DNA from: Fimbriimonadaceae bacterium
Lineage (GTDB): Bacteria; Armatimonadota; Fimbriimonadia; Fimbriimonadales; Fimbriimonadaceae
Length of the DNA stretch: 41,258 bases
Assembly (NCBI GenBank): GCA_025455775.1
Contig: JALOLT010000009.1
Span: 1-41,258, forward strand
Direction of reading: 5' to 3'
Shown here: in pieces, positions 13,712 to 18,125 of the stretch
Numbering within the stretch: the first letter of the stretch is position 1
Layout of the letters: every line of letters starts with the position of its first letter
Notes under the pieces: model-generated
The model's database searches: none
Told to the model about the DNA's origin: nothing
What the model saw: only the letters and a program-made list of their open reading frames with translations
Position numbers and translations under genes: made by a program

Positions 13712-13853
13712 GTGACGGGGTATATTCCCGCATTGGTCGTGAATATTCTTGACTTGGTGATGCTAGTGGTTTTGCCAGTTATAGTGGTAGCTATGGCCTC
13801 AAAACTTGGTGCTAAAAGTACTAGTTTTGCCGAAAACAGAGGTTTGTTCTTCC

Positions 13854-13882
13854 TTGGGTTTGCGGAAAGTCTGCGCTATACT
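13854..13882 (+). promoter_or_regulatory. Probable sigma70 promoter of the PEP-CTERM protein gene
   Basis: TTGGGT (13854-13859) and TATACT (13877-13882) are separated by 17 nt. They sit about 50 nt before the ATG at 13931, which has AGGAGA (13922-13927) as ribosome binding site. The start site would be near 13889, giving a leader of about 42 nt. Confidence 0.6.
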
Positions 13883-13930
13883 GAATACGTATTCGGAGAG
13901 GATGGATTGATTCTTTCCTACAGGAGACCA

Positions 13931-14821
13931 ATGAAGGTACGACTTTCTTTATTAGCCCTCGCTTCAGTTGCTGCTCTCGGAGTGGCAAACGCCCAAGTTA
14001 TCGACGGAACTGCTGAGGCTCTTTACGGCCCTGCCCTTTTCACGCAGTCGAACCCCACCCAGTTTGGTAACAGCACGGTTGGGTTGTTGCACGAATCACA
14101 AGGTGGTTCGGAGATTGATGCTGTCTACGGCCGACTTTTCGGTGGTGGACTGAACCTTGCCGTTGCTGGCAACTTGGAGAACAGCTTTAACAAGCTGGTT
14201 CTCTTCTTTGACACTGGCGTTGGTGGATTCAACACGATTGGTGCAACTCAAGGGAGCACAGATGATAGCAACTTCGTGTCGAGCCTCGCTGGCTACACGT
14301 TCGATGCTGGTTTCAATGCAAGCCACGTTCTGTGGTATCGCCAAGGAGGAGCAGGGGGCAGTGGCTTCGTGACACTTTCGTCTCTTGGCGCTAGTGGATC
14401 TGACTTGATTACTGCGAACACGAGCATCACGGCTGGTGTTGTCCCAACGATCACTTCCGGCACCTTCCAATTCGCGTACAATCACAGCAACACAGGCGGA
14501 GTTGACAGTTCCGGTGGAAGTGGTGCTGGCGTTACGACAGGCGCAGAAATGTTCATCTCCTTCGCCACTCTCGGATTGTCTTCTTCCAGCTCGATTCGCG
14601 TCGCTGGTTTGATCGTCGGTGGTGGTGCTCCTCCTTTCGCTTCTAACCAGGTGATCGGTGGTCTTCCGGCTGGCACAAACAACCTCGGTGGTTCTGTGAT
14701 TAACTTTGCCAACATCGATGGCAACCAGTATGTTGAAGTTGTTCCCGAGCCGATGACGATGAGCGTTTTGGCTCTGGGTGCTTTGGCTGCCCTTCGCCGA
14801 CGCAAGAGCAAGAAGAGCTAA
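13931..14821 (+). CDS. PEP-CTERM sorting domain surface protein
   Basis: From the ATG at 13931 the 296-residue product starts with a signal peptide (MKVRLSLLALASVAALGVANAQ, cleaved after ANA). The mature region is rich in Gly, Ser, Asn and Thr and low in charge, typical of an exported surface protein. The C-terminus is a PEP-CTERM tail: VVPEPMTMS, a short hydrophobic helix (VLALGALAAL) and RRRKSKKS. Such tails are cut and the proteins exported by exosortase (EpsH/XrtA-type); no exosortase is in the window. The frame is open back to the rimO stop, but the AGGAGA site and signal peptide fix this start. Function is unknown. It has its own promoter and double terminator. Confidence 0.85.
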   Translation: MKVRLSLLALASVAALGVANAQVIDGTAEALYGPALFTQSNPTQFGNSTVGLLHESQGGSEIDAVYGRLFGGGLNLAVAGNLENSFNKLVLFFDTGVGGFNTIGATQGSTDDSNFVSSLAGYTFDAGFNASHVLWYRQGGAGGSGFVTLSSLGASGSDLITANTSITAGVVPTITSGTFQFAYNHSNTGGVDSSGGSGAGVTTGAEMFISFATLGLSSSSSIRVAGLIVGGGAPPFASNQVIGGLPAGTNNLGGSVINFANIDGNQYVEVVPEPMTMSVLALGALAALRRRKSKKS

Positions 14822-16531: not shown

Positions 16532-16556
16532 GTTAACCGTAAATCCTGGACGTTTT

Positions 16557-16597
16557 CTGGCCTTTTCGGTGAACCCGAGAGGGCCGGATTTTCTTTT
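16557..16597 (+). terminator. Rho-independent terminator of mdh
   Basis: CTGGCCTTTTCGG (16557-16569) pairs with CCGAGAGGGCCGG (16575-16587, with wobbles) around a 5-nt loop, followed by ATTTTCTTTT. It starts about 26 nt after the mdh stop. Confidence 0.88.
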
Positions 16598-17104
16598 GGG
16601 CATCGCCTCTTCCGCCATTTGGAAAAAAATGCCCGCTCAACTGTTCGAATGTAAGTGTTTAGTTGATTCTCTAACTGATTGGCTGGCAAACATTCGGCTT
16701 TTCAAACTATTGGGAGTTGATCGAACAATCTTTTTTAAAAAGGTCCTAAGTTGCTAACGATTGGTACGGAAATTGTCGTCAAACACGGTGGCACAAAGCC
16801 GGAATGCCTATGTCCGACTCATTCGTGGAGGAATCGCTTGACAGTATGTCAAGAGTTTGGTAACATGCCCCCTGCGCCTAAGAACGGAATAAAGTGCCGG
16901 TAGTTGGCGCCGAAAGTTGATGTCCATCATTCCAAGTTGGAATGTGCAGGTTAGGAGGACAGGTGCGTGTACGTACGGCGGTTCCCTGACATGTCGGGCG
17001 CGAACGGCCTGCTGGTCATCAATTTTGTCGTTCGGTCGGGTTCCCGTCGACCTTGATCTCATGATTTGGGTCGGCTCCGAGACCAGAAACTGAGGGAAAC
17101 TTGA
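16598..17104 (+). other. Gene-free stretch with speH promoter and long leader
   Basis: 16598-16837 is AT-richer and holds nothing I can support. 16838-16866 is a promoter (separate entry). 16873-17104 would be a leader of about 230 nt. It contains CATTCCA/TGGAATG (16928-16944), a hairpin at about 17033-17053 (GGTCGG region), another at about 17069-17085, and an upstream ORF from ATG 16920 to TGA 17091-17093 (57 codons) whose stop overlaps the speH ribosome binding site. It matches no riboswitch consensus I know. Confidence 0.5.
16837..16866 (+). promoter_or_regulatory. speH promoter with palindrome over the -35 box
   Basis: A perfect -35 TTGACA (16838-16843) and a -10 TAACAT (16861-16866) are spaced by 17 nt. 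The -35 box lies inside the inverted repeat CTTGAC-AGTAT-GTCAAG (16837-16853), which is suited to repressor binding. The nearest downstream gene is speH. Confidence 0.65.
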
Positions 17105-17713
17105 TTGACTACCATCATGCTAATCGGACTTGCTGCGGTTTGCGCAGCCGTTGTTCCGCTGGCGGCTAGCCAGCGCACGTCCTGGTTTCAGCGTTTGCTG
17201 AATCGCGTAAAAAAGAGCGCCATTGTCGCTCCTGCCCCCCCTGTCATCGAAAATGATGCTGGTTGGCAACTCCTCCACAGCGAAGATCTCCAGAGCTTCA
17301 ACGATTGGCTCGGCAAGGATTCGATGGGTCTCCCTTCGATTCCCAATGAAGAGCCATCCCTCGGGAGCCACCTTCTTATCGAGCTTTTCGACTGCGACAA
17401 AGCAGCCCTCGAAAAGGAGCTTCCCGTCGGAAAAGCAATGATGGATGCTGCGCGAGCCAGCGAGGCAACCATCGTCACGGACTCCTTCCACGAGTTCAAG
17501 CCGTTTGGAGTCAGTGGTGCAGTGATCATCCAGGAATCTCACTACACGATCCACACTTGGCCAGAGCATGGCTACGCAGCAGTCGACTTGTTCTATTGCG
17601 GCGGTACGATCTACGTGGACCGAGCTGTTGAAGTGCTGAAGGATCGCTTCAAGCCAGGTCGCATCAAGTTCCTGGTGGTGAGACGAGGCATCCAGAGCGA
17701 AGTCTCTGGCTAG
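17105..17713 (+). CDS. speH: S-adenosylmethionine decarboxylase proenzyme with N-terminal membrane segment
   Basis: The C-terminal 115 residues are a bacterial class 1B AdoMet decarboxylase: GSHLLIELFDCD (87-98), the self-cleavage site at E144/S145 in QESHYTIHTWPEHGYA (the Ser becomes the pyruvoyl cofactor), processing H150 and C165 in FYCGG. It makes decarboxylated AdoMet for spermidine synthesis. Usual SpeH is about 120-140 aa; this one is 202. Residues 4-21 are hydrophobic (IMLIGLAAVCAAVVPLAA) and are followed by a basic stretch (RTSWFQRLLNRVKK) and a linker to about residue 86. The start is TTG at 17105, 8 nt after GAGGG; ATG at 17117 is an alternative that still keeps most of the hydrophobic segment. 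No spermidine synthase is nearby. Confidence 0.92.
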   Translation: MTTIMLIGLAAVCAAVVPLAASQRTSWFQRLLNRVKKSAIVAPAPPVIENDAGWQLLHSEDLQSFNDWLGKDSMGLPSIPNEEPSLGSHLLIELFDCDKAALEKELPVGKAMMDAARASEATIVTDSFHEFKPFGVSGAVIIQESHYTIHTWPEHGYAAVDLFYCGGTIYVDRAVEVLKDRFKPGRIKFLVVRRGIQSEVSG

Positions 17714-17736
17714 AATCTGCCACGCCAGCCAAGAGC

Positions 17737-17769
17737 GGGGGCTGACTCAAAAGAGTCAGCCCCCTTTTT
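17737..17769 (+). terminator. Rho-independent terminator of speH
   Basis: GGGGGCTGACTC (17737-17748) and GAGTCAGCCCCC (17753-17764) form a perfect 12-bp stem with an AAAA loop, then TTTTT. It lies 24 nt after the stop. Confidence 0.95.
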
Positions 17770-18125
17770 GCGTCCCCCTAACGGTGCCGGTCGGTGACCT
17801 GAAGCCGCCTTTCCGAAAGGGGCGTGAGGGCAGTTCTCTCCAAAGAGAAAGGGTTCAATTACTCATGAGGCAAGTCCTTTCTTGCCAGACTCTCCGAGTC
17901 GCCGCAGGGGGGCGGAGCCCCGACAGAGTCGGGGCGAGGGTTTGGCATCGGGCCCCGGCGGCGACACTTCACCCAACAGCTGAAAAACAATAGCCCAAAC
18001 GAAGGTCATCGCCAAGTCGAAATGACCATAAACAGCCGTTCTAGCAATGGGAATTGAGCCTGAAGCCAAGAGCCTCCCACGACTCCCGTCACTCCAGACA
18101 AGGTCCAATAACTCAGGACGGAATC
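17770..18125. other. Gene-free stretch between convergent speH and uridine kinase genes
   Basis: Contains element copy C (17898-17965). On the minus strand, 17970-18125 reads in two frames as fragments of a hydrophobic protein (SYWTLSGVTGVVGGSWLQ in one frame; TAVYGHFDLAMTFVWAIVFQ in another). This may be a decayed small membrane gene downstream of the kinase gene, or chance. No other gene is supported. Confidence 0.4.
17898..17965 (+). repeat. GC-rich palindromic element, copy C
   Basis: GTCGCCGC (17898-17905) pairs with GCGGCGAC (17958-17965), and GCCCCGAC (17917-17924) with GTCGGGGC (17928-17935) around an AGA loop. Compared with copy B, the terminal stem changes GAT/ATC to GAC/GTC (a compensatory pair) and the outer arms are replaced by a different but complementary pair. 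The core GGGGGGCGGAGCCCCGA, and GGGTTTGGCATCGGGCC on the 3' side, keep the family pattern. Confidence 0.85.

Follow-up and report, generated by a model that had tools for sequence, protein, structure and literature searches.

The gene speD of a Fimbriimonadaceae bacterium, located in the window analyzed here (the whole 41,258-nucleotide stretch, contig JALOLT010000009.1), raises two related questions: what is the role of the approximately 85 additional residues, made up of a hydrophobic stretch, a basic helix, and a linker, that precede the enzyme core of its product, and from which start codon is this product translated? An earlier note on this DNA had recognized the N-terminal extension and proposed that the enzyme may be membrane-tethered or carry a degradation or regulatory tag. 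That extension stands; the overlapping short open reading frame (ORF) at the speD start and the structured leader had been overlooked, and these look more unusual than the N-terminus itself. The features discussed below are collected in Table 1.

Table 1. Positions of the speD features within the window
Feature	Position	Strand	Basis or description
Promoter-like pair	16838..16866	+	TTGACA 16838-16843, 17-base spacer, TAACAT 16861-16866, TG ahead
5' domain of structured leader RNA (model R1)	16869..17024	+	R1 match in own genome; compensated pairs
Start-pairing strand	17031..17050	+	Can pair with Shine-Dalgarno and both start codons
GAGG Shine-Dalgarno core	17092..17095	+	5 bases before short ORF start, 9 before speD start
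Short ORF, -1 frame	17101..17169	+	TTG 17101, 22 codons, stop TAG 17167-17169, then C
speD	17105..17713	+	AdoMet decarboxylase proenzyme, 202 aa, opens at TTG 17105, stop codon 17711-17713
Hydrophobic stretch, residues 4-20	17114..17164	+	Predicted N-out/C-in membrane segment; model confidence low
Basic helix, about residues 25-37	17177..17215	+	Helix 25-35 in AlphaFold model; charge count
Conserved linker, residues 53-77, strand and helix	17261..17335	+	Invariant residues; AlphaFold model
SpeD core, residues 85-202	17357..17710	+	Pfam, T. maritima alignment, fold match
Terminator-like hairpin and T run after speD	17737..17769	+	12 pairs, 9 G-C

Judging from its sequence, the speD product looks like a genuine class 1b AdoMet decarboxylase (AdoMetDC) of the Fimbriimonadaceae (Armatimonadota). 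It shares with the known enzymes of this class (SpeD/SpeH, PF02675; T. maritima TM0655, 1tlu/1vr7) the core, the fold, and the Ser/His/Cys residues, and differs from them by its N-terminal addition. The PF02675 profile (AdoMet_dc) matched residues 89 to 195 with 121.5 bits against a cut-off of 25, and the alignment with T. maritima SpeD, the nearest solved relative, begins at residues 84 to 85; therefore, the core start of about residue 87 given in the earlier note was correct within a few residues. The AlphaFold model of the protein (mean pLDDT of 81.7) matches 1vr7 and 1tlu over the core, and a fold search with this model returned AdoMetDCs as the best matches over the core and nothing informative on the N-terminal extension. 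As described for T. maritima SpeD, S63 is the processing serine, and H68 and C83 are catalytic (PMC10407285, in the excerpts available). The corresponding S145, H150, and C165 of the window SpeD are invariant across 47 aligned proteins, and self-cleavage is expected at E144/S145 (17534-17539). All conservation counts are drawn from related genomes, and this set of 47 corresponds to L001 to L066 minus L029, L059, and L065, with no TTG near the expected start, and minus 16 near-duplicates (>95% identical); one of the 47 loci, L064, belongs to the sister family f5.

The same fold and processing residues are also present in SpeDA and SpeDC, SpeD homologs turned arginine or ornithine decarboxylases, with one known case in Armatimonadota, that of Capsulimonas (PMC10407285, in the parts of the article available). 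According to the same excerpts, these homologs were recognized in genomes that lack SpeE or carry an additional SpeD, whereas the window genome (98.45% complete) has a single PF02675 gene and two SpeE-family genes (Spermine_synth above cut-off); judged from these gene counts, an identity as SpeDA or SpeDC is not indicated. The two SpeE-family genes agree with the two aminopropyltransferases studied in Fimbriimonas ginsengisoli, one of which is a thermospermine synthase (PMC11107197, from the available sections). One lies at position 24 of contig 36 of the genome (G000) and the other at position 19627 of contig 56; the former starts at the contig edge and adjoins an ORF that appears NrdR-like by eye. 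As a putrescine source, the decarboxylase family covered (PF02784) yielded one gene, LysA-like by eye. Elsewhere in the window, an ORF at 13712-14821 has a PEP-CTERM-like tail (VVPEPMTMSVLALGALAALRRRKSKKS), and its listed GTG start seems, by eye, to join an upstream frame.

The extension is conserved, and for this reason we regard it as more than chance. A hydrophobic stretch, a basic stretch, and a linker ahead of the core, as the earlier note had them, were all recovered: residues 4 to 20 are hydrophobic, five K/R residues follow, and the linker, modeled by AlphaFold as a strand (residues 55 to 59) and a helix (residues 62 to 71), holds residues that are invariant in the 47 proteins (G53, W54, F65, W68, D72, and P77). 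Among related genomes, 50 of 61 have a SpeD match. Relatives devoid of a conserved extension, which the same note had named as evidence against its reading, were looked for, and in the family of the window (f1) 32 of 37 genomes gave a match, each starting by residue 16 (that of G035 is split across two contig ends). The sister family f5 gave five full matches starting by residue 10, and its loci retain, by eye, the hydrophobic start and the linker. Matches in family f2 start only at residues 77 to 84, and by eye its proteins mostly have another extension, not clearly hydrophobic; most of 12 f2 SpeD proteins (L117 to L128) carry N-terminally a VGxLGxRPARS motif and a W/R-rich stretch, without a clear membrane segment.

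Could this conserved N-terminus anchor the enzyme? We defined an anchor pattern by a 17-residue window with a mean hydropathy of at least 1.6, the absence of K/R before it, and a net charge of at least +2 in the next 20 residues. Each of these features occurs in 45 of the 47 deduplicated loci, and all three occur together in 43 (the exceptions are L007, L024, L040, and L042). In the window SpeD, the best 17-residue window covers residues 4 to 20 with a mean Kyte-Doolittle value of 2.61, preceded by no K/R and followed, within 20 residues, by five K/R and zero D/E, so that the positive charge lies on the putative cytosolic side. From this pattern of hydropathy and charge, an N-out/C-in insertion is predicted. 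A signal peptide is disfavored, since the positive charges are located after the stretch rather than ahead of it. The suggestion in the earlier note that the enzyme may be membrane-tethered thus gains from the anchor pattern and loses from two other observations: a simple 19-residue insertion-energy sum, on a crude scale with no position weighting, was slightly unfavorable (+0.5 in the window and below 0 in 1 of 47 loci), and the AlphaFold confidence over residues 1 to 20 is approximately 50, with just a short helix modeled there (residues 4 to 8). On the sequence pattern, tethering of SpeD with the N-terminus out and the core in the cytosol is likely and the likeliest reading, albeit energetically marginal; if true, this would place AdoMetDC at the membrane, a location new for the enzyme. 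As for a membrane-bound SpeE partner, the two SpeE-family ORFs are, by eye, without an obvious hydrophobic domain (one of them being the ORF at the contig edge), and this candidate was set aside.

The hydrophobic N-terminus might instead be a degradation tag or a protein-contact segment that controls the lifetime or the assembly of the enzyme. Polyamine enzymes are short-lived in many organisms, which fits this reading, as do the marginal insertion energy and the model devoid of a long N-terminal helix; nevertheless, we hold it to be unlikely, given that the charge asymmetry across the stretch is consistent in the same 43 of 47 loci and that a folded, conserved linker separates the stretch from the core.

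The start region of speD is conserved in its DNA beyond what the protein requires. It consists of GAGG, about 5 bases, TTG or GTG, and then ATTG; the TTG ending this motif is the speD start. A start codon is located at position -4 of the speD start in 38 of 47 loci (25 TTG and 13 GTG) and opens a short ORF, mostly of 8 to 11 codons and of 22 codons in three loci including the window; across the 16 loci whose short ORF has 9 codons and the 14 in which it has 10, GAGG does not vary. The first stop is a TAG within 25 codons in 36 of the 38 loci with the -4 start, with a C directly after this TAG in 35 of the 36; the two remaining loci have a TAA, after 42 codons in L004 and after 3 codons in L007. 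Among the nine loci lacking the -4 start, a TAG within 25 codons was found in one (L015), a difference with a Fisher p of 1.2e-6 when relatedness is ignored. When the protein was held fixed and synonymous codons were redrawn in 2000 resamplings, stops of any kind fell within 12 codons in 4.9 loci on average and in 12 at most, against the 34 of 38 observed. The choice of TAG among the stops can be traced to the protein, because TAA or TGA would insert Asn/Lys or Asp/Glu into the hydrophobic stretch. Both TTGs are also present in L111, there with TAG followed by T, and in five f5 loci (L112 to L116) none of the listed candidate starts is preceded by a start codon at -4. In L029, which lies outside the 47, the speD start is GTG, and GTG is found at both positions together with TAG-C. 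Since the speD start is altered there and yet remains a start codon beside the conserved -4 start, the comparison argues that both starts are used.

Which of the two frames encodes SpeD is indicated by three observations. In the overlap, the mean hydropathy is 1.83 in the speD frame against -0.77 in the short frame, and it is higher in the speD frame in 36 of 36 loci. Most of the information resides at the second codon positions of the speD frame, both before and after the TAG. Moreover, loci devoid of the short ORF mostly keep the identical TTG start and the hydrophobic N-terminus, with the exception of L042. On these sequence grounds, SpeD is read from the TTG at position 0, with the short ORF as a second frame. 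Because the codon preceding TTG 17105 is TGA, there is no in-frame start farther upstream. The peptide sequence of the short ORF is not conserved among the loci compared, and the information in the overlap tracks the codon positions of speD.

Ahead of both starts lies a leader. The promoter-like pair is the sole such site in 16540-17800 (shuffles gave a mean of 0.6 with a standard deviation of 0.7) and agrees with 10 of 12 consensus positions, a consensus match only; a similar -10 motif was seen in 43 of 47 loci in a first pass with a loose pattern and no null. In preparing the leader alignment, we moved the promoter sites of L019 and L062, recovered those of L032 and L037, and dropped that of L042. 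The hairpin after the gene is a pattern match only, as three such sites occur in the region against 1.4 expected. Overall, speD looks like a one-gene transcription unit.

In the leader type of the window (13 sequences), 28 of 47 predicted pairs show compensatory changes. The structure was predicted on the same alignment that was used for this count, and likewise for the control, in which 91.3% of cells were paired against 36.8 to 45.9% with the partners slid. The model R1 of the 5' domain found the window leader in its own genome with an E value of 1.7e-24, the window sequence being a training member. Across the family, it gave a single site in each of 22 of 85 genomes, and 22 of 22 sites lie upstream of speD. 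Of these matches, 14 nearly duplicate training rows; independent support comes from the remaining eight (L144 and L147 to L153; E values from 4.8e-25 to 2.3e-5). The remaining 63 of 85 genomes gave no match to R1, so this leader type is confined to part of the family. In the window leader type, the conserved structure and the fixed gene context identify a putative structured cis-regulatory RNA. The short ORF ending in TAG-C occurs in just 11 of the 22 genomes that have the R1 leader, which indicates that the leader and the short ORF are separable.

Searches against Rfam gave four weak matches in positions 16550-17800 of the window (E of at most 10), none on the plus strand of the leader, two weak matches only in 14 loci at an E of at most 1, and one tRNA only in 20 loci at the gathering cut-off; the leader thus matches no Rfam family. 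A single structure for all leaders was also considered and dropped, as RNAalifold on MAFFT alignments yielded none. In a second kind of leader (type B; L013, L016, L020, L021, L027, and others), the sequence begins TTGCGTCACGG..CCGTG and often contains AGGAGAGATCCT. When 18 type-B leaders were folded as an alignment, no more than 7 pairs remained; folded singly, they have one hairpin near the 5' end in common and, for the most part, another. In 14 of 17 leaders, a CGAACG in a leader loop is complementary to a CGTTCG close to the start-pairing strand (17000-17033 in the window). Their pairing (CGAACG with CGUUCG) is a possible pseudoknot or switch contact, on which covariation gives no test because both are nearly invariant.

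The start-pairing strand would hide the initiation site. In the window, the duplex formed by 17031-17050 has an energy of -19.1 kcal/mol (z of -2.3 against shuffles) and is also present in the single-sequence fold, and similar start pairing was found in several leaders with GAGGGAAAC. Over all 47 loci, the mean z is -0.4, with only 11 of 47 below -1.5, so that start hiding is supported for the leader type of the window and not for the other types.

We lean toward a picture in which SpeD, probably membrane-bound and encoded by a one-gene unit, is limited at initiation by a folded leader and competing starts. The N-terminal segment would tether SpeD to the inner membrane face, with its N-terminus out and its core in the cytosol, the basic helix would sit at the lipid surface, and after self-cleavage the tether would remain on the beta chain. 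The leader of about 230 bases would fold and, in the window type, pair with the Shine-Dalgarno and both start codons. One Shine-Dalgarno would serve two weak overlapping starts, UUG or GUG at -4 and UUG (once GUG) at 0, and ribosomes initiating at -4 would make a short peptide, stop at the UAG, and be lost to speD. A weak start, a shared Shine-Dalgarno, and, at least in the window, a hiding helix would together keep SpeD synthesis low. The leader may sense a metabolite, and polyamine feedback or SAM sensing would be natural candidates. Against competition speak the 9 of 47 loci lacking the -4 start, the absence of the TAG pattern in L004 and L007, the R1-leader genomes of which half (11 of 22) carry the short ORF with TAG-C, and the unconserved peptide. 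Only tentatively do we propose the more specific version, in which the leader represents a riboswitch of a new class, with thermospermine, spermidine, or SAM as its possible ligand, and gates a doubled start between a dead-end mini-ORF and membrane-bound SpeD. If true, this gated start would be a separately arisen bacterial counterpart of the control exerted by upstream ORFs (uORFs) on plant and animal AdoMetDC.

In plants and animals, polyamine synthesis is classically controlled at the translation of AdoMetDC. The plant and mammalian AdoMetDC uORF is likewise a small leader ORF expected to limit translation (PMC3426882, in the excerpts available). The present case differs in that it is bacterial, overlaps the speD start through two adjacent start codons, and has an unconserved peptide. 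In speF, which encodes ornithine decarboxylase, the small ORF of the leader lies upstream of the gene, whereas that of the window overlaps the start of speD. The speF leader of Salmonella and E. coli likewise combines an RNA leader and a small ORF in the control of a polyamine gene (PMC6386406, in the available part). The spermidine riboswitch, a SAM-I variant that acts on transcription termination in Gram-positive bacteria, is likewise a structured leader before polyamine genes including speD, and the available text describes 13 examples from Gram-positive genera and metagenomes (PMC10853860); in contrast, the window leader has no Rfam match to SAM-I. In the open-access literature, a membrane-bound SpeD or a speD mini-ORF or leader in bacteria is not reported among the matches listed, as far as their excerpts extend. 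With a conserved mini-ORF over the start of a bacterial speD, and a covarying leader that has no name so far, how these bacteria sense polyamines or SAM becomes a testable question.

The short ORF could also aid speD by translational coupling: ribosomes starting at -4 would open the leader helix, stop approximately 23 to 60 bases past the speD start, and re-initiate backwards. In most loci the stop is held near the speD start, a closeness that a mere decoy could do without, and a possible helix covers both starts; these points lend the coupling some weight, and still it seems to us rather doubtful. Both starts lie under one Shine-Dalgarno and one helix, so opening by the -4 start would not be independent; in addition, the stop is located 62 bases beyond the speD start in the window group, and the identical TTG start is kept in loci without the short ORF.

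A programmed frameshift is far less probable than the competition of two starts. RF2 and antizyme are made by +1 frameshifting, and the short frame here likewise ends where a +1 shift would enter the main frame: the geometry is exact, one base skipped at the TAG giving the speD frame, and 35 of 36 loci have UAG-C, a context in which termination is weak. Ribosomes from -4 shifting at the UAG would yield, in the window, a second SpeD form lacking the hydrophobic stretch. However, the codon before the TAG varies freely (GGC, GGT, CCT, TGT, TTG, GAG, and others), so there is no common slippery codon, in contrast to RF2 and antizyme. The main frame is, also unlike in those systems, conserved upstream of the stop and remains hydrophobic there, which a frameshift route would not need. 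Furthermore, TAG followed by C or T is allowed by the protein, AGC is commoner than AGT in these speD genes (130 versus 28), and L111 has TAG-T. For the lack of a slippery codon and the conservation of the speD frame before the stop, programmed frameshifting is disfavored.

Finally, that the extension is untranslated and SpeD initiates at one of the in-frame start codons inside it (ATG 5, TTG 31, or ATG 74), for example at ATG 74 as an ordinary soluble enzyme, is hardly credible: SpeD proteins of class 1b are mostly short, initiation at ATG 74 would yield a protein of normal size (129 aa), and 36 of 44 loci of other groups (L067 to L110) have a start codon at positions 81 to 83, but relatives do not keep the ATG at 74, invariant residues of the 47 proteins lie within the extension and would be lost together with the conserved start-site context, and the codon-position and hydropathy pattern of the speD frame runs from the TTG onward. 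A start near residue 85, which the earlier note had named as the other finding that would count against it, is likewise disfavored by the sequence comparison, as invariant residues precede it. One of the loci from other groups, L067 (Clostridia bacterium RGIG4156), has a stop-to-stop frame of 562 residues that ends in the SpeD core, preceded by more than 350 residues, possibly a fusion.
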